A stretch of 17,060 nucleotides of DNA from assembly GCA_946481495.1 (NCBI GenBank), contig CAMLNW010000025.1:1-17060 (forward strand), read 5' to 3'. This stretch comes from an uncultured Actinomycetes bacterium. Lineage in GTDB: Bacteria > Actinomycetota > Thermoleophilia > Solirubrobacterales > Thermoleophilaceae. The notes beneath the pieces were generated by a model. It was not told where the DNA came from. It worked only from the letters and a program-made list of their open reading frames with translations, and did no database searches. The position numbers and the translations under genes are program-made. Below are positions 2,471-9,108 of this stretch, in pieces (positions within the stretch are counted from its first letter, which is position 1; every line of letters begins with the position of its first letter).

Positions 2471-2754
2471 GCGACGACGACACCCAGCCGCACCTCGCGG
2501 CCGACCCGGCCACAACGCCCGCCCTGGAGTCCTACGAGGCCGCCGCCGAACGCCTGGAGGAGATCATCAAGCGCCTCGACTCCGGCACCGCCGGTCTCCG
2601 CGAGACCCACGACCTCGTCAAGGAGGGCCGCGACCTCGTCGTCTACTGCGCCAACGAGCTCGACGCCGTCGGCAAAGACCTCGACGAGCTCCGTCTCGAC
2701 GACCTCATCACCCGCCTCGAGTCCAACGGCTCACCCGACGCCCGGCCCGAGTGA
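2467..2754 (+). CDS. xseB: exodeoxyribonuclease VII small subunit
   Basis: The 95-residue acidic, helical protein is the small subunit that coats the helical C-terminus of XseA. Its core matches the family: SYEAAAERLEEIIKRLDSG, then GLRETHDLVKEGRDLV, a helix-turn-helix hairpin at about residues 22-65. The first 20 or so residues are a variable, Asp/Pro-rich tail. The start ATG overlaps the xseA stop by four bases, the usual arrangement for this pair. The stop TGA in turn overlaps the GTG of the following small gene, so three genes are coupled. Confidence 0.93.
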   Translation: MSDDDTQPHLAADPATTPALESYEAAAERLEEIIKRLDSGTAGLRETHDLVKEGRDLVVYCANELDAVGKDLDELRLDDLITRLESNGSPDARPE

Positions 2755-3023
2755 CCGTCTCACCCGAGCACCGCGAGTTCGCCCGCCAGGCCGGACTCTC
2801 CCTCACCGTCGACCCCCGCCCCACCTTCGAGAACCTCTCCAAGGCAACCGGGGTCCCCGTCGACACCCTCATCCACCACGCCCTAGTCCGCTGGACCTCA
2901 GCCGGCGCCGAAGCCCTCCTCTCGATCGAGCCCCAGGCCCTCACCGACCTCATCGAAGCCCGCAAAGCCGAAGACTGGCCCAAAATCGCCGGCATCATCG
3001 ACTGGCTCGAAACGGGCCTGTAA
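2751..3023 (+). CDS. conserved-looking small protein of unknown function, third gene of the xse operon
   Basis: The 90-residue product starts with GTG at 2751-2753 inside a GTGA overlap with the xseB stop. The frame is open further upstream, but that part runs antiphase through xseB and is discounted. The protein is mixed helical and soluble, without signal peptide, membrane segment or cysteine motif. The middle part contains ATGVPVDTLIHHALVRW, which reads like a small helix-turn-helix or helical bundle element, and the end contains DLIEARKAEDWPKIAGIIDW. I do not recognise a family. Translation coupling to exonuclease VII suggests it is made in proportion to XseB, but no functional link is shown. 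Codon use is as GC-rich as in xseAB, so it belongs to the chromosomal backbone and not to the accessory block that follows. Confidence 0.8.
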   Translation: MTVSPEHREFARQAGLSLTVDPRPTFENLSKATGVPVDTLIHHALVRWTSAGAEALLSIEPQALTDLIEARKAEDWPKIAGIIDWLETGL

Positions 3024-3067: not shown

Positions 3068-3170
3068 CAGAACCCCTCGATGCTTGCCAGGGGGTGTCGC
3101 ACGACGCGGATCAGAACACGGCATTACGATGTCCCGTCGGCCGCGCAAATTAACCTATTCGCTAACTTGT

Positions 3171-3404
3171 ATGCCTCGAGTCCTCTACCGTCCAAACTAT
3201 GGCGTCTACGTGGGAGACGAGCGCGGCGAGCGGCACCACAGCCCGCACGCCCACGTCAAGCACCGCGGCAAGCGAATCGCGTCCGTACACCTCTACTCGC
3301 TCGCGGTGCTCAAAGAGATCGAGCCGGTGCCCCCTGAGGTGATGAAGATGATCCGCGACAACCAAGAAGACCTACTCGCCGAATGGGAGCGGCTGAACCC
3401 GTGA
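3171..3404 (+). CDS. DUF4160 family protein
   Basis: The 77-residue protein has the DUF4160 pattern: an N-terminal strand pair (MPRVLYRPNYGVYVGDE), the histidine cluster HHSPHAHV at residues 22-29, a basic strand (KHRGKRIASVHL) and a C-terminal helix ending DLLAEWERLNP. The family is about this length. DUF4160 genes are commonly found next to DUF2442 genes in toxin-antitoxin-like pairs; the biochemical role is not settled. The ATG at 3171 gives the normal family N-terminus; two earlier in-frame ATGs would add unlikely residues. The TGA at 3402-3404 overlaps the GTG start of the next gene as GTGA, so the two are co-translated. The 147 bp upstream contain an AT-rich patch (about 3147-3167) that could hold a -10 element. 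Confidence 0.8.
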   Translation: MPRVLYRPNYGVYVGDERGERHHSPHAHVKHRGKRIASVHLYSLAVLKEIEPVPPEVMKMIRDNQEDLLAEWERLNP

Positions 3405-4843
3405 ACGCCTCCGAGCCATGGATGGAGCCCGGATACGGGGATGTCGAGGAGGCGGCCCGTCGGGACAACCTTGTAGAGGTTGTCTTTGCGAACGGGGATA
3501 CCGTGCAGATCGATTCCACAGGACTAGGGCTTACGGGCGAGTTCACGGTCGATGTGGCTGAGGGCCGAGCTGCTGTCTTGATCAGGACGGTCGAGGGCGA
3601 TCGCGAGATCGACTGGATGGTGATCCGCTCCGCTGCCGATCCAGCGTTTGCTCAAGAGCTACGTGAGCGCGACGCGGAGGAGGCGCGACGAATCGGTCGA
3701 CGCCTACGCGCGCTGCGCGAGAACCGGGGAATGAGTCAAAAGGCAATCGCCGGCGTCGTTGGCATGTCTCCGCCGCAACTGGCGAAGCTTGAGCAGGGCG
3801 AAACCGACATGCGGATATCAACCTTGCGGAGCCTCTTGCGGGCGCTTGATGCAAGCTTTGCGGATATTGCTGGTCCGGACGCGCCCGAGGTATCAGTAAA
3901 AGAGATAAGAAGGCGGGCGCAGCACGTTGGCGTTCCGCCTGAGGTTGTCAATCGAATAGCGGAAGCAGTTGATCCCCGTGAACTGCTAGAAGTAATCGGG
4001 CGAGCGTTCAGATGGGATCCGCAAAGCATCATTCGGAATGATCTCGTCCTGCCGGTCCCAGCTGGCCAACTGACGCTTAAACGCCGCAGCACCACAAAGG
4101 ACGACAACCAGGCACTGCTAACGCTTGCCGAGGCCCTAGCGCAACGGAGCGCGCTCGCTTACTCAGGAGATCCGGGTACGGTGCCAGCAGACCCCCTGAC
4201 TATCCGCGAGTCCGTGACTGACGACGCAACTGGGATTACTCTCGACGGACTTCTAGATTGGTGTTGGAATGCTGGAATCATCGTGGTCCCGATGAAAGCA
4301 CCGGGCGGATTCTCGGCGGGCGCGTGGCTAATCGGCGACCAACCGGTCGTGATCCTTAAAGAGGCACCTGACTACAAGGCGTACTGGCTATTCGCGCTGG
4401 CCCATGAGCTCGGGCACTTCGCGCTTGGCCATGTCGCTCGCAACGGCCTCATCGATGTTGAGAGCGTTTGGGGGGAGAACGATGACGATCAAGAGAACGA
4501 CGCCAATGCGTATGCGCTCGAGCTGCTTGTACCTGGGCATGTCGAGATGCTCAAGGAGATAGAGCGCCGTTCGGCAGGCTCTGAAGCCCATAAAAAGTTC
4601 AAGTTCAAGGCAATTGACGCTGCGAAGTCGCGCAACCACAACGTACCGCTGGTCTTGCTCACGGCCGCGTTTGGCCTACCGAATCTTGCTGAGCCAAAGG
4701 ATAGGTGGGGATCCGCGAACAACGAGGCTGCCAAAGAGGGCTCGGCCCACCGGGTGGTGGCGAAAGAGTTTGCTCGTCACCTTGACCTGGAGCAACTTGA
4801 TCGACCTGACGCCCTACTTCTCAGGGCAGTAACACTCGAGTGA
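3401..4843 (+). CDS. Xre-type HTH protein with ImmA/IrrE-type zinc metallopeptidase domain
   Basis: The 480-residue product has three parts. Residues about 20-80 form a small beta-rich module (VEVVFANGDTVQIDST ... EIDWMVIRS) that resembles DUF2442; this match is tentative. Residues about 97-152 are an Xre/Cro-type helix-turn-helix (RLRALRENRGMSQKAIAGVV, then MSPPQLAKLEQGE). The C-terminal half carries an ImmA/IrrE-type peptidase: the H335-E-L-G-H339 zinc motif within FALAHELGHFALGHV, followed by E365 in ENDANAYALELLVP, the usual third ligand. Relatives cleave repressors, often in mobile-element control, stress responses or toxin-antitoxin modules. The GTG start at 3401 is preferred because it sits in a GTGA overlap with the DUF4160 stop; ATG at 3383 or 3422 is possible. 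Codon use is less GC-biased than in xseAB, consistent with acquisition. Confidence 0.85.
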   Translation: MNASEPWMEPGYGDVEEAARRDNLVEVVFANGDTVQIDSTGLGLTGEFTVDVAEGRAAVLIRTVEGDREIDWMVIRSAADPAFAQELRERDAEEARRIGRRLRALRENRGMSQKAIAGVVGMSPPQLAKLEQGETDMRISTLRSLLRALDASFADIAGPDAPEVSVKEIRRRAQHVGVPPEVVNRIAEAVDPRELLEVIGRAFRWDPQSIIRNDLVLPVPAGQLTLKRRSTTKDDNQALLTLAEALAQRSALAYSGDPGTVPADPLTIRESVTDDATGITLDGLLDWCWNAGIIVVPMKAPGGFSAGAWLIGDQPVVILKEAPDYKAYWLFALAHELGHFALGHVARNGLIDVESVWGENDDDQENDANAYALELLVPGHVEMLKEIERRSAGSEAHKKFKFKAIDAAKSRNHNVPLVLLTAAFGLPNLAEPKDRWGSANNEAAKEGSAHRVVAKEFARHLDLEQLDRPDALLLRAVTLE

Positions 4844-4851
4844 TGACCGAC

Positions 4852-5682
4852 CTACGTGACGCGCAGGCGTACCGATACTGCGGCGTGGTCGGAAAGGCCA
4901 CGCTCCCTGGGGCCATGCAGGTACCCGCATCGCTCGACGGCGCCGTGCAGGGCCTCGCCGACGTGGACGTAGTCGTAGAGGTAGCGAAGGCCGGTGCGCC
5001 CGATCCAGCTGTGCGGCTGACCGCCACGCGGACGAAGCTCGTGTGCTGGCCGCAAGCCCATCTGGGTGAGTTCATCGTGCAGGCCGTACTCCCACGGGAA
5101 GAAGCCCGGAAGCGGAGGCTCATGGCACCTTGCAACGGCGTTGTAGTCGCCTGCCAGGACGAGGCGGTGTCGCTGCTGGACCGGAAGCTCTTGAAGGCTA
5201 TCGGTCAGCGATCGAATGAAAGCCATCTTGCGCTCGACCTTGACCTCGCTGCGGTCGCGCGAGGGGATATAGACGCCGACGATGGCGATCTTTCGTGGCT
5301 TGGTCTCGAGCACCACCGCAGATGCCCGACACGGAAGCGTCACGGCCACTCGTTCGGACAAGTCTTGAGCAATCGGAATTCGGCTCGCAAGCAGTACGCC
5401 ACGCTCACGAGGATCGTAGGTATGGTGCACATTGAAGCCACTTGCGCGGAGCCCTTCGCCGAGGAGCGCGGTACCTGCGCCACCGCTCGTCTCCGTGAGC
5501 ACAATCACGTCGTCTCTACGCGACCTCAACCAGCGGAGAATCTCGGTTGCGCGTGGCGCTGCCGCCGCCCCGATGTTGAAGGTCAGCAAGCTGATCGTGG
5601 AGGTGGTCGGCTGCCGTGTTCCCCGACGGGCCGTGCGTCGCGGTCGCGCGACCGGGCGCTTGGTCTGAACGAGTGTCGTCAT
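4852..5682 (-). CDS. endonuclease/exonuclease/phosphatase (EEP) family protein, copy 1
   Basis: The 276-residue protein carries the full set of EEP (DNase I/ExoIII/synaptojanin fold) motifs: L33-T-F-N36 for the first strand, E64 in VLTET (metal ligand), the VYIPSRD loop (138-143), G178-D-Y-N181, H224-S-W, D237 in YLYDYVHV and S264-D-H266. All catalytic positions appear intact, so a metal-dependent phosphodiesterase or phosphatase is likely; the substrate cannot be read from sequence. The first 29 residues are Arg/Thr-rich (MTTLVQTKRPVARPRRTARR) and precede the first strand, so this copy has a basic tail that copy 2 (7492-8280) lacks. ATG at 5682 is the only ATG in this N-terminal part, with a poor Shine-Dalgarno. 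It is convergent with the Xre-peptidase gene (8 bp between stops) and divergent from the radical SAM gene. Confidence 0.88.
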   Translation of the reverse strand: MTTLVQTKRPVARPRRTARRGTRQPTTSTISLLTFNIGAAAAPRATEILRWLRSRRDDVIVLTETSGGAGTALLGEGLRASGFNVHHTYDPRERGVLLASRIPIAQDLSERVAVTLPCRASAVVLETKPRKIAIVGVYIPSRDRSEVKVERKMAFIRSLTDSLQELPVQQRHRLVLAGDYNAVARCHEPPLPGFFPWEYGLHDELTQMGLRPAHELRPRGGQPHSWIGRTGLRYLYDYVHVGEALHGAVERCGYLHGPRERGLSDHAAVSVRLRVT

Positions 5683-5780
5683 GGGATGGCGCGACCACGG
5701 ACGTGGCGCGTAGTGGCTGTCCGGGCGCTCCCGGCTTTCGACGGTCCAGCGCGGTTCCCTGCCAGATTGCGGGATCCTTG
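5683..5780. promoter_or_regulatory. divergent intergenic region between EEP copy 1 and the radical SAM operon
   Basis: These 98 bp separate the ATG of the minus-strand EEP gene from the ATG of the radical SAM gene, so promoters of both transcripts are expected here. No convincing -35/-10 pair or inverted repeat is visible. The segment is GC-rich, and the GGGA at 5771-5774 is the only weak ribosome-binding candidate in front of 5781. The radical SAM frame stays open through this stretch, so a longer N-terminus cannot be fully excluded. Confidence 0.35.
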
Positions 5781-6869
5781 ATGGCCGGCCGCAGAATCAC
5801 CGGGAAGGGTGTTGCCGCCTCATGCTACTTTCGCACGTCCACAATCGCTCCTGAGCGCAAGGCACTCGTTCAGGTGACCGAGCGCTGCAACCTTCATTGC
5901 GCGCACTGCTTCGTATCGTCGGGCCGCGAGGGGATCGACATTTCGCTGGAGCAGATGGAGGATGTTGTTCTGCCGCAGTTACGCCAAGCGCGGGTTGCGC
6001 GGCTGACGCTCACTGGGGGTGAGCCATTTGCGCACCCTGATCTCGTTTCCATCATTCAAGCCGCGCGCCGGAGCGAGATGACGGTGACTGTATGCACGAA
6101 CGCCACCCTGATAGAGCCCGACACCTTGAGCACTCTCAGCGAACTCGGCGGTGTCAGTCTCAATGTCAGCCTTGATGGCTTCTCGGCTGCGAGTCACGGC
6201 AAATTCCGCGGCTCTCCCTCGTCTTTCGCAGTGACGAAACAGACAATGCGCGCGATTGCCGACCATGGTTTGCTGAAGGGTGTTCTCGTTACGCCAAACA
6301 ACCTTGCTCACCTCAATGAGTATGACGAACTATGCCAATATGCGCACGAGTGTGGTGCAGAGTACGTACTGATGAATCCGCTTTCGTCGATGGGACGCGG
6401 CGTCCACGGCATCCGTCGCCTAGGAGCGCCGGAGCACTTCATGCGTTCTTTGGCTGAGCAAACATCCGCTTTTGAAGACAAGCTCGACATCGTGCGGATT
6501 CGATTCCCCAATGACGATCGGCCCCTCTCGGGATGCGAGGCGGGCACGATCTTGTATGTCTTCGCGGATGGCAACGTTACAGTCTGCCCCTATCTCGTCT
6601 TTGCCGCACGCGCGCCACAGTCACTCCACGAAGACACTGAGTTCATTGTTGGGAACGTGTTCGAGCACCAGAACCTTGCGGAGCGCCTTGACCGTTATCA
6701 GTTGCACGATCGTTCCGCGGGAGCATCAGATCCGACTTGCGACTCGTGCGCTCTCGCGGATGGTTGTGGCCGCGGATGTCCCGCTGCCATCATCGCGGGT
6801 GGAGGTCGCATCGGCGATCGTGATCGCGCTCAGTGCCCGATTCCCGACGTCGAGGAGGGAGCGGCATGA
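5781..6869 (+). CDS. radical SAM/SPASM domain enzyme
   Basis: This 362-residue enzyme should bind a SAM-cleaving [4Fe-4S] cluster through C36-x3-C40-x2-C43 (TERCNLHCAHCF). It shows the expected T78-G-G-E-P82 motif of the SAM-binding strand, followed by a TIM-barrel core (LNVSLDGF at 127-134). The C-terminal SPASM domain is complete: C252, C269 (GNVTVCPY), then C320-x2-C323-x5-C329-x3-C333 and C352, enough for two auxiliary clusters. SPASM enzymes usually modify peptides or proteins, sometimes small molecules. No short precursor-peptide gene is visible next to it. ATG at 5781 is chosen because it leaves a normal-length N-terminal extension. Its stop overlaps the kinase start (ATGA, 6866-6869), so it is the first gene of the operon and its product is made together with a nucleotide kinase. 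The substrate is unknown. Confidence 0.9.
   Translation: MAGRRITGKGVAASCYFRTSTIAPERKALVQVTERCNLHCAHCFVSSGREGIDISLEQMEDVVLPQLRQARVARLTLTGGEPFAHPDLVSIIQAARRSEMTVTVCTNATLIEPDTLSTLSELGGVSLNVSLDGFSAASHGKFRGSPSSFAVTKQTMRAIADHGLLKGVLVTPNNLAHLNEYDELCQYAHECGAEYVLMNPLSSMGRGVHGIRRLGAPEHFMRSLAEQTSAFEDKLDIVRIRFPNDDRPLSGCEAGTILYVFADGNVTVCPYLVFAARAPQSLHEDTEFIVGNVFEHQNLAERLDRYQLHDRSAGASDPTCDSCALADGCGRGCPAAIIAGGGRIGDRDRAQCPIPDVEEGAA
6852..6859 (+). promoter_or_regulatory. strong Shine-Dalgarno for the kinase gene
   Basis: GAGGAGGG-type sequence lies about 6-7 nt before the ATG at 6866, inside the end of the radical SAM gene. It fixes the kinase start against upstream in-frame options and supports true translation coupling. 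Confidence 0.7.
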
Positions 6870-7495
6870 CCATCTTTACTGAGGCACCGCCAGATGGCCT
6901 CTTGGTGACCATCGACGGACCGAATGGAGCCGGCAAGACAACCCTTGCCGACGCCATCGCGACGCGCCTCAAGGCCGCCGGCGAAACTGTGCACACGACT
7001 AGTCAGCCTTCGCCAACGACGCTTGGTGACACGGTGCGCGCCGCCGAGACCAGCGTCAGTGGCCGAGCTCTAGCATGCTTGGTTGCTGGCGACCGTCACC
7101 ACCAAACCGCAACAGAGATCGTCCCGCAACTCGCCGACGGCGCGATCGTGCTCTGTGACCGCTACGTCGAGTCCTCACTCGTGCTCCAGCGTCTCGATAA
7201 CGTGGAGATCGATTACATCCTCGCGATCAACGCCGGGATCCCGCGGCCAGCCCTGCGCATTCGCCTACTCGCAGAGCCGCGGCTGCTGGTCAAGCGACTC
7301 GCTCAACGACAAGTTTCGCCGGCGCGCCGCTTCGAGGGGAGTGTTGCCCCCGAGCGTGAGCTCGCTCTCTACGCCGAAGCGGATGTGTTGCTGACACAGC
7401 GCGAGCAGCTACCAGCAACGGTCTTTGACACGAGCGCGACTGATGCGCAGGGGCTTGGCCTCGTAGCCGCTGAACTCATTTTGTCTCTCCGATGA
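6866..7495 (+). CDS. thymidylate kinase-like nucleoside monophosphate kinase
   Basis: The 209-residue protein matches the dTMP kinase family in length and motif order: P-loop G18-PNGAGK-T25 preceded by the LLVTIDGP strand, D98-R-Y-x2-S-S103 (DRYVESS) and a lid region with R154-R-F-E157. The loop that is often EPGGTPLGE in housekeeping dTMP kinases reads QPSPTTLGD here (residues 47-55), so the phosphate-acceptor end differs. The phosphoryl-transfer machinery looks intact, so it probably phosphorylates a (deoxy)nucleoside monophosphate, but calling it the cell's tmk would be unsafe. It lies between a radical SAM gene and an EEP gene, both with ATGA overlaps, which argues for a dedicated role in that operon. 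The start at 6866 follows a clear Shine-Dalgarno. Confidence 0.88.
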   Translation: MTIFTEAPPDGLLVTIDGPNGAGKTTLADAIATRLKAAGETVHTTSQPSPTTLGDTVRAAETSVSGRALACLVAGDRHHQTATEIVPQLADGAIVLCDRYVESSLVLQRLDNVEIDYILAINAGIPRPALRIRLLAEPRLLVKRLAQRQVSPARRFEGSVAPERELALYAEADVLLTQREQLPATVFDTSATDAQGLGLVAAELILSLR

Positions 7496-8280
7496 GGGTG
7501 GGAGTGTTAACGCTTAACGTCGCGAATCCCTCGGCGGCCAGAGCAGAGCGCCAACTTGAGTGGCTATCGAACCGCTCGGAGCAGGTTCTCGTCTTGACTG
7601 AGATAGGCCCAAGCGGCGGTAGTCGCCTGTTGCTTGATCGCCTCGTATCGGCGGGATGGGATGTGCGCGCTGGAAGCCTCGAGGGCGGCGAGCGCGGCGT
7701 TGCAATCGCAGCCCGTCTCCAGGCCGCGCCTAGGGAAGGCGACATCATTGATTTTCTCCCGTCGAGAGCCGAATCTATGACGCTTGAACCGCTTGATGTA
7801 GTCGGCCTATACGTACCTTCGCGCGACGAGTCCATCGATAAGACCGAGCGCAAGCGCTCCTTTTGCGCTGCCTTGTCCGACTACCTCGTTGATCGGCCGT
7901 CGCGCGACGCGGTGATCGTAGGTGACCTCAATGTACTTGAGCCTGTCCATCGCCCTCACCACGGCGTGTTTCGGGACTGGGAGTACCGACTTTACGATGA
8001 GTTCGTAGTTCGCGGCTTCGTCGACGCCTACCGCCTGAAGCATCCCAACGAGATGGACCACAGCTGGATTGACTACGAGAACCGCGGCTACCGCTTCGAC
8101 CATGCATTTGTCAGCGCCTCTCTATCCGACCGCGTCCTGAGGTGCGACTATGTGCACGATTCTCGCGAGCGGGAACTCTCCGACCATTCCGCTCTCGCTG
8201 TTGAGTTAGATTGGCCAGGCGCGTTGCGCGAACTAGGCGTCTCGGACTCACTTGCCGGCGAGCAGCCGTCGCTTTTCTAG
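7492..8280 (+). CDS. endonuclease/exonuclease/phosphatase (EEP) family protein, copy 2
   Basis: The 262-residue protein starts directly at the first EEP strand (MRVGVLTLNVA, N9). It continues with E37 in LVLTEIG, the LYVPSRD loop (106-112), G144-D-L-N147, H190-S-W, F202-D-H and S230-D-H232. All metal and catalytic positions expected for a phosphodiesterase or phosphatase are present. It shares unusual blocks with copy 1 (4852-5682): a YxPSRDxS loop followed by KxERK, a WEYxLxDE segment, HSWI, and RERxLSDH near the end. The two are therefore paralogs of one narrow subfamily and not random EEP members. The start ATG overlaps the kinase stop (ATGA at 7492-7495). The last 20 residues (after VELDWPGA) are an extra tail without motif. 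Location is probably cytosolic: no signal peptide or TM. Confidence 0.88.
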   Translation: MRVGVLTLNVANPSAARAERQLEWLSNRSEQVLVLTEIGPSGGSRLLLDRLVSAGWDVRAGSLEGGERGVAIAARLQAAPREGDIIDFLPSRAESMTLEPLDVVGLYVPSRDESIDKTERKRSFCAALSDYLVDRPSRDAVIVGDLNVLEPVHRPHHGVFRDWEYRLYDEFVVRGFVDAYRLKHPNEMDHSWIDYENRGYRFDHAFVSASLSDRVLRCDYVHDSRERELSDHSALAVELDWPGALRELGVSDSLAGEQPSLF

Positions 8281-8283
8281 AGC

Positions 8284-9108
8284 ATGAGCCGCCAGCGCCT
8301 AGTAGCAATCGTCGTTCCGTCCTTACTGTGTGTGATCGCCGCGGTCACTGCATTAGCGGTCTTAGGCCACGGTACAGGGTCTCCGTTGGGCAGCACGCTT
8401 GCCGTCGGGGTGCTGTCATCCCTCCTGGCGACGGTGATCGTTAGCGCGGTCCGCGTTGTAGTCGTCGTTCGGTCGGAGTCGCCGTCACCCGATGCCCTGA
8501 TTCCCGCCGGTCTCGTGCGTATCAAGCCCAAGAAGGACCTGACCACTCAAGAGTGGCTTCAGCTACTACAGACGGCCAAGGATGAGTTCTATATCGCTGG
8601 CCACTCCCTTGGGAGGTGGTGCGCCCCGAGTACTCGCGACGAGTTTGTGGACCATGTGCGTCGCATTTTAGACAGTAAGGGCCGTGTGACTCTGGTCATG
8701 CTGGATCCTACGAGCCAGCAGATTAATCGTCTTCAGCAAGCAACCGCCGTGGATTACACGAGCAGGATCAAGACGAGCTTTAGTGTTCTTCGTGAACTAG
8801 CTGAACAACTTCATCCTGATTCCCTGGAGCGACTCAAGGTTGCCGTCCTGAACGACCATCAAGCGCTTCCTTACATGGTTGTAGGAAACGAGCGCCGGCT
8901 GGTTACCGCAACCTACCTTGGGAGTAGCGACAGTGATGAGGTGGCGTGCTTGGAGTTCGACCTTCCTAGCAGCGCAGCCAGGGCCGTGTATGACGACTTC
9001 CATGAGCTAGCGGAGGCCGGTGCGGAGGCAGAACTACCTGTTCCAGCTGGAGGCTCCCAGTCTCGCGGCCGGAAGCAGCGCCTACGACTCAACCCGTTCC
9101 GTCGCTAA
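8284..9108 (+). CDS. two-TM protein with PLD-like (DUF5919-like) cytosolic domain
   Basis: The 274-residue product begins with two hydrophobic segments (about residues 5-27 and 36-62) joined by a short Gly/Ser loop. A soluble domain at about 85-245 follows, and then a Gly/Arg-rich basic tail (RGRKQRLRLNPFRR). The soluble part has the pattern of an N-terminal half of a phospholipase-D-like fold: EWLQLLQTAKDEFYIAGHSL, then GRVTLVMLDPTS, then a late NDHQALPYMVVGNERRL strand pair. A canonical HxKxxxxD motif is not present, so catalysis is doubtful. The domain resembles DUF5919-type modules; this is pattern recognition only. The gene starts 3 bp after the EEP stop and so belongs to the radical SAM-kinase-EEP operon as its membrane component. 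Membrane-anchored sensors or effectors are common last genes in defence operons, but that role is inference. Confidence 0.75.
   Translation: MSRQRLVAIVVPSLLCVIAAVTALAVLGHGTGSPLGSTLAVGVLSSLLATVIVSAVRVVVVVRSESPSPDALIPAGLVRIKPKKDLTTQEWLQLLQTAKDEFYIAGHSLGRWCAPSTRDEFVDHVRRILDSKGRVTLVMLDPTSQQINRLQQATAVDYTSRIKTSFSVLRELAEQLHPDSLERLKVAVLNDHQALPYMVVGNERRLVTATYLGSSDSDEVACLEFDLPSSAARAVYDDFHELAEAGAEAELPVPAGGSQSRGRKQRLRLNPFRR

Follow-up and report, generated by a model that had tools for sequence, protein, structure and literature searches.

A conserved radical SAM, TMK-like kinase and ExoIII-fold gene cassette that probably makes or handles an altered nucleotide

A 17,060-nucleotide stretch of DNA from an uncultured Actinomycetes bacterium (contig CAMLNW010000025.1), hereafter the window, encodes a radical SAM/SPASM enzyme (rSAM), a TMK-like nucleotide kinase and an ExoIII-fold enzyme of the endonuclease/exonuclease/phosphatase (EEP) type. 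We found that these three genes, here called the triad, form one conserved unit in which the active-site motifs are present. The cassette to which they belong probably produces or processes a nucleotide with altered chemistry, perhaps in order to poison viruses or competitors. The best explanation overall is an apparently mobile nucleotide-modifying cassette with built-in protection, to which we give about an even chance. An earlier reading made from the sequence alone had proposed that the operon is undescribed, and our literature searches on the gene set, which mostly did not cover subscription papers, likewise returned no description.

That reading had also asked whether homologues of these genes keep company elsewhere, and they do. 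Genome contigs from 84,980 species were scanned by means of an alignment of rSAM proteins, which gave 186 relatives; our counts rest on the best 80 of these, with partners detected in the loci by tblastn using the window proteins. rSAM, TMK and EEP were found together in 78 of the 80 genome loci, and the other two (L012 and L055) end at a contig edge. The genes follow the order rSAM-TMK-EEP on one strand in 77 of the 78 triads, the remaining one being a Ryanbacteria metagenome-assembled genome (MAG; locus L013) with the order TMK-rSAM-EEP; in the triad of another genome, G388, the EEP gene is on the opposite strand. When overlaps are counted and plasmid and viral-contig loci are included, both junctions are 5 bp or less in 53 of 83 same-strand triads. 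The pairwise distances of the three proteins are correlated at 0.84-0.86 (85 rows, permutation maximum 0.09), a value to which shared host descent contributes.

The triad hosts are mostly Actinomycetota, but also include Ryanbacteria, Bipolaricaulota and Gemmatimonadota MAGs; one relative of the window rSAM, at 66% identity, bears the name Solirubrobacterales, and the window host is probably near that order. The spread is patchy: in the phylum of G001, the family was present in 3 of 396 genomes, G001 included, among the matches listed and with no more than five candidates scored in each genome. Searches among the relatives of G048, G005, G006 and G002 gave a match in the centre genome alone. 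In the class of G106, whose thiolase is 75% identical to the window's, none of 399 genomes had an rSAM match under the same scoring depth, a result that shows little. Three genomes carry two triad copies each (L022 and L040, L028 and L042, L077 and L082), and L077 has an extra TMK-like gene near 20.3-20.7 kb. A search of viral contigs yielded the close family in 4 of 32 matches (L086-L089, IMG/VR, 90-155 kb), three of them with the full triad, and an rSAM search of phage records gave two partial, weak matches. The PHROGs families matched in a scan of 45 genes of L086-L089 include regulators and endolysin-like, tail-fibre, tail-completion and nuclease families; the 25 of 41 families listed contain no capsid, portal or terminase, so these contigs are only possible phages. 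The cassette appears to move between genomes.

The sequence-only reading had called the catalytic motifs of the rSAM, the kinase and both EEP proteins intact, and we found them so in the sequence and in alignments. The rSAM has the core CX3CX2C (C36, C40 and C43) and a complete SPASM set of seven cysteines (C252, C269, C320, C323, C329, C333 and C352). None of these ten varies across 25 aligned proteins, the window's included, except that C43 is Tyr in L002. This copy, on a Streptomyces plasmid (7272-8381), may be inactive, given that Tyr replaces the third core Cys. The window rSAM falls under the cut-off of all 25 listed NCBIfam models of the 83 matched (best MftC, 95.7 of 265 bits). Its Pfam matches are Radical_SAM, Fer4_12 and SPASM, the last under cut-off, and no RRE or PqqD-like domain was found among them, no search having been aimed at RRE. 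Radical SAM chemistry on nucleotides is found in viperin and in enzymes of several nucleoside drugs.

The kinase carries the P-loop GPNGAGKT and a DRY motif, and its Q108 and D111 are invariant in 87 aligned sequences. It shares the TMK fold family with bacterial dTMP kinases and narrowly passes TIGR00041 (85.8 vs 83.25 bits), but it departs from them in the nucleotide pocket: the Tyr of their AYQ motif, present in the aligned S. aureus and P. aeruginosa TMK chains, is Leu107 here, with Leu in 86 of the 87 sequences and Met in one. This Tyr serves to exclude ribose, and the substitution suggests a substrate with a sugar other than plain 2'-deoxyribose. The kinase also matches the PADLOC candidate PDC-M51B (E 4.1e-7).

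The window encodes two EEP proteins, EEP2 within the triad and its paralogue EEP1, which is 37% identical to EEP2 and 51% identical to the EEP of L072. Across 87 aligned EEPs, the catalytic positions N9, E37, Y107, D145, N147 and D203 never vary, and H232 is kept in 86, with a gap in the other. Following an acidic Pro/Ala linker, 69 of 85 fetched EEPs end in a C-terminal -LF, usually [TA]LF. We considered this tail as a sliding-clamp motif and rejected it, as the leading Gln is not conserved.

The genes next to the triad point to a nucleotide as the likely substrate, as the sequence-only reading had suggested. By clade, the cassette has gained either hydrolases that act on nucleoside tri- and diphosphates (MazG-like, NUDIX or CYTH) or a kinase that acts on deoxynucleosides. 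The first downstream gene encodes one of these hydrolases in 52 of 81 loci, vs 3 of 781 genes lying more than 4 kb away, although the far-gene rate is an underestimate because the profiles were built from near genes. Within 1.5 kb of the triad, CYTH genes occur in 29 loci, MazG-like genes in 15 and NUDIX genes in 13. Simple catalytic motif patterns are kept throughout (33/33 CYTH, 15/15 MazG-like, 13/13 NUDIX); the name MazG was given on the strength of motifs and of the L002 annotation, and two members tested in Pfam gave no match. The type of partner tracks the rSAM clades, with NUDIX in Pseudonocardiaceae, MazG in Streptomycetaceae and Catenulispora, and CYTH in a third group. In the Ryanbacteria locus, the start of a CYTH gene lies across the stop codon of the EEP gene, and a NUDIX gene comes next. 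In the Bipolaricaulota locus L019, the EEP stop is directly followed by the start of a gene for a deoxynucleoside kinase (PF01712, E 2.9e-32; open reading frame (ORF) call). In two plasmid clusters, L003 and L005, members of the same EEP family are accompanied by a formyltransferase and by a protein in which a TMK-like domain is joined to a DegT aminotransferase (the L005 match is weak), perhaps a related biosynthetic pathway.

Other neighbours were noted. On the Streptomyces plasmids L004 and L123, similar EEPs have HIT, phosphotransferase, ABC-transporter or FxLD-lanthipeptide genes in their vicinity. Five Micromonospora loci (L029, L039, L050, L051 and L063) encode, 98-974 bp upstream of rSAM, a protein that by eye resembles HD-domain proteins.

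Within the window (Table 1), the order of the genes, their close junctions and the divergent EEP gene are all as the sequence-only reading had given them. The rSAM start was read as the ATG at 5781. The rSAM and TMK genes overlap by ATGA (6866-6869), as do the TMK and EEP2 genes (7492-7495), and the gene for the protein with two transmembrane (TM) helices follows EEP2 after 3 bp (8281-8283). That reading had confined the operon to 4852-9108. The genes there are as it stated, but the real unit is wider: by GC content and co-occurrence, the DUF4160 gene and the adjacent gene for a helix-turn-helix (HTH)-M78 fusion (3171-4843) are part of the module. GC content is 58-64% at 3.0-9.1 kb vs 68-74% outside, and the pair lies within this low-GC island because the low GC spans that whole interval. 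The DUF4160 start at ATG 3171 was chosen visually, guided by the conservation of the N-terminal end; the longest ORF begins at 3084. Just left of the island, at 2739-3023, is a gene for a DUF6027-like small protein (Pfam E 8.2e-7). A sigma-70 scan of the stretch between EEP1 and rSAM gave no promoter-like match, promoter and terminator scans scored no better than shuffles, an operator palindrome search returned short repeats only, and Rfam and tRNA scans gave 0 matches each.

Table 1. Features of the cassette in the window.
Feature	Position	Strand	Basis
DUF4160 protein, small, toxin-like family	3171..3404	+	Pfam PF13711 E 9.7e-4, under cut-off
HTH-M78: XRE helix-turn-helix fused to ImmA/IrrE-like metalloprotease, 486 aa	3383..4843	+	Pfam, PADLOC
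EEP1, ExoIII-type EEP paralogue, divergent from rSAM	4852..5682	-	Pfam Exo_endo_phos 9.7e-12
Intergenic 98 bp separating divergent EEP1 and rSAM starts; presumed promoter region	5683..5780		sequence
Radical SAM/SPASM enzyme (rSAM), 362 aa	5781..6869	+	Pfam Radical_SAM 5.3e-21; 3+7 Cys
TMK-like nucleotide kinase, 209 aa (Pfam Thymidylate_kin)	6866..7495	+	NCBIfam TIGR00041 85.8 bits
EEP2, ExoIII-fold enzyme, C-terminal -SLF tail	7492..8280	+	Pfam Exo_endo_phos
Two-TM protein with degenerate PLD-fold cytoplasmic domain, 274 aa	8284..9108	+	predicted structure

The remaining genes of the module belong to the window's own clade. The HTH-M78 protein matches HTH_31 (2.5e-14) and, under cut-off, Peptidase_M78 (3.1e-4) in Pfam, and RmrA (1.3e-8), capP (2.5e-8) and capH (1.4e-5) in PADLOC; its HELGH motif is intact and is present in all three aligned sequences. 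It is likely a regulator or antitoxin, and its PADLOC resemblances suggest that it may be a controller or an antitoxin. The DUF4160 protein has a weak match to the DhiT toxin (18.6 of 100 bits). Homologues of both adjoin the triad in L072, a Gemmatimonadota MAG, and in G388; HTH-M78 is thus beside 1 of the 80 genome-contig triads, plus G388. Of 396 genomes, G388 alone matched HTH-M78 at E 1e-25 (among the matches listed, with no more than four candidates scored in each genome), a search in its class returned G388 alone, and a search of viral contigs returned none. An AAA_10 ATPase, which we take to be VirB4-type, lies about 2 kb from the EEP gene of the G388 copy.

The two-TM protein is predicted to have N-terminal helices at residues 3-28 and 36-64 and then, over roughly residues 73-250, a domain of PLD fold (mean pLDDT 85), and it has no convincing Pfam family. 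It had no tblastn match in the triad loci searched and none in a search of plasmids. Its fold resembles that of TrmB and Nuc in the PLD superfamily, but unlike the active members it has no HxK(x4)D, nor any HxK at all; because of this, the predicted domain looks more suited to sensing or binding. The membrane protein that the sequence-only reading placed in the operon stands as an accessory, one that is confined to the window's clade and whose PLD domain is without the catalytic motif.

Association of these genes was also assessed in a large protein collection through contigs of at least 3,500 bp and of exactly equal size, with offset controls, using the best 120 of 1589 rSAM matches, 120 of 217 HTH-M78 matches and 60 of 61 two-TM matches. 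rSAM and HTH-M78 share at least 35 exact sizes (84 and 99 contigs; control mean 0.36, maximum 2), rSAM and the two-TM protein at least 13 (0.125, maximum 3), and HTH-M78 and the two-TM protein at least 9 (0.155, maximum 2). This association of the three is indirect but strong.

We propose that the rSAM would abstract a hydrogen from a nucleoside or nucleotide and so modify it, that the kinase would lift the unusual monophosphate to the diphosphate, and that cellular kinases would then turn it into a triphosphate analogue able to interfere with nucleic-acid synthesis. The partner hydrolases would hold this triphosphate at a low level, and the EEP, being ExoIII/NExo-like, would clear blocked 3' ends or perform the final phosphoester cut of the pathway. 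In the window's clade, HTH-M78, which resembles the CapH/CapP pair triggered by single-stranded DNA, would activate the operon, and a sensing or acting role at the membrane may fall to the two-TM pseudo-PLD protein. If this is so, we would put slightly over half of the weight on intracellular conflict with phages or plasmids as the purpose, a smaller share on an exported nucleoside antibiotic, and the small remainder on something else. The conserved system is real and nucleotide chemistry is likely; the steps leading from nucleotide to poison to defence are ones that we infer.

Several points weigh against this proposal, the underestimated far-gene rate among them. The CYTH genes in the 29 loci are on the opposite strand. 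Because partners cluster by clade, the separate associations number about 4-6, by eye on the tree, rather than 52, and the tree itself requires at least two changes among the three partner types. No such partner was found within 1.5 kb in 24 of 84 rows, some of them at contig ends, and the window, which is among the 84 rows but outside the 24, has no MazG, NUDIX or CYTH partner. The top curated matches of the rSAM include the peptide maturases MftC, StsB and AlbA, along with NirJ and BlsE, and the substrates of SPASM enzymes are mostly peptides or cofactors. The EEP could simply be a nuclease of DNA repair, and DUF4160/HTH-M78 may be a mere toxin-antitoxin module.

A first alternative, which we consider possible though clearly a minority prospect, is an anti-phage defence resembling viperin plus kinase, in which a chain-terminating nucleotide would be made on infection, HTH-M78 would be the switch responding to single-stranded DNA, and the two-TM protein would be a second effector or sensor. 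The HELGH motif of HTH-M78, its similarity to RmrA, capP and capH, its co-occurrence with rSAM homologues and its position beside the triad in the window, L072 and G388 all argue for this, as do the single-gene similarities of the kinase to PDC-M51B and of the rSAM to pVip and the island, plasmid, viral-contig and conjugative-type contexts. CapH/CapP are controllers of immune operons, according to two papers (PMC13373217, PMC10904395). We also examined neighbours of the triad: 186 were eligible after excluding the partner clusters (CYTH, MazG, NUDIX and LysR) and proteins below 90 or above 900 aa, 148 were drawn and 138 scanned, with 10 left out regardless of content. No transporter was found among Pfam families matched by at least two of the 138. 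However, a defence function, as the sequence-only reading had supposed, did not emerge from PADLOC. The eight window proteins matched no system gene set and gave single-gene similarities only, with no match for EEP1 or the PLD protein and one for EEP2 (E 0.024). The 25 of 105 PADLOC families listed for the 138 neighbours were regulators, with RmrA models in up to four and capH in three, and helicase models (GajB, LmuB and RTasHel) with one member each. Defence neighbours are few, with one helicase of GajB type on this list. The HTH-M78 regulator is, moreover, restricted to one clade.

We regard as speculative the fuller account of a self-protected nucleotide-poison system, in which the SPASM rSAM and a re-specified TMK would make a toxic nucleotide, separately recruited MazG, NUDIX or CYTH enzymes would restrain its triphosphate, the ExoIII-type enzyme would remove it from host nucleic acid, and one clade would have turned the set into a DNA-damage-triggered immune operon.

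It is unlikely that the genes are instead a small cluster for an exported nucleoside antibiotic, with the hydrolases as tailoring or self-protection enzymes. Many of the host genera are antibiotic producers, the partner genes act on nucleotides, and some plasmid clusters that look biosynthetic combine similar EEPs with aminotransferase, formyltransferase, HIT, NUDIX or MFS genes. There is a precedent in tubercidin biosynthesis, where the Nudix protein TubG is reported as a tailoring enzyme (PMC6112128). Yet the cassette has three to five genes only, occurs in a 0.9-Mb Ryanbacteria genome, and has no transporter, glycosyltransferase or assembly-line gene, either by eye in shared neighbour clusters 3-25 (examples) or among Pfam families with at least two members.

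A module for nucleotide-pool or DNA-end repair, in which damaged nucleotides would be restored or removed under stress with no toxic product, seems quite improbable. The EEP fold is ExoIII/NExo-type, the partners come from house-cleaning hydrolase families and one clade has a stress-type regulator, but occurrence is patchy (the 3 of 396 phylum genomes, few candidates being scored in each) and we know of no radical SAM/SPASM chemistry in pool cleaning. Least probable is a ribosomally synthesized and post-translationally modified peptide (RiPP) system in which the SPASM enzyme would modify a small precursor and the other genes would be bystanders: the highest NCBIfam scores include peptide maturases, the best solved relative is SkfB and XRE regulators are common nearby, but the constant partners are a kinase and an EEP, and a search of ORFs of 18-100 aa from 1 kb upstream to 0.8 kb downstream in 83 loci and the window found no conserved precursor in the 14 largest clusters, which look like shadows of NUDIX, CYTH, MazG or LysR genes or contain only close Micromonospora.

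We therefore return to the nucleotide-modifying cassette with built-in protection. Such a cassette may lead to a new nucleotide, and its partner enzymes hint at the type of molecule to seek. Should it prove defensive, it would add one more immune strategy based on nucleotides; should it prove biosynthetic, it would be a nucleoside pathway with very few genes.

Each component has known counterparts from which it differs. CapH/CapP, the DNA-damage regulators PprI/DdrO and RmrA likewise place an HTH and an M78-type metalloprotease (HExxH) beside an operon, whereas here the two are one fused 486-aa protein paired with DUF4160, for which RmrA slightly outscores capP. The EEPs share the fold and catalytic residue set of Exonuclease III, NExo and APE, but both miss the Exonuclease III equivalog cut-offs (EEP2, 67.9 of 182.55 and 64.1 of 99.05 bits; EEP1, 38 of 182.55 and 46.6 of 99.05), most fetched members have the -LF tail, and they are encoded in an operon with an rSAM. 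BlsE, a cytosylglucuronate decarboxylase, is the second-best solved relative of the rSAM (E 7.8e-22), and radical SAM enzymes of its type act on nucleoside-type substrates, as we propose for the cassette; the rSAM nevertheless scores 73.7 bits against a cut-off of 400, and to our knowledge nucleoside-antibiotic radical SAM clusters have no kinase/EEP pair. Prokaryotic viperins (pVip) are the closest parallel in arrangement, being radical SAM enzymes encoded beside a nucleotide kinase, and the PADLOC pVip model matches the rSAM core (E 3.9e-19, residues 86-194 of a 417-aa ORF). The pVip models cover the core alone, and viperins are recognised by a viperin C-terminal region and no SPASM, a description that the window rSAM does not fit. 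As the sequence-only reading had held, it is not a viperin, because SPASM is present with its seven-Cys pattern; it stands outside the viperin family, in a cassette with a constant ExoIII-type EEP.

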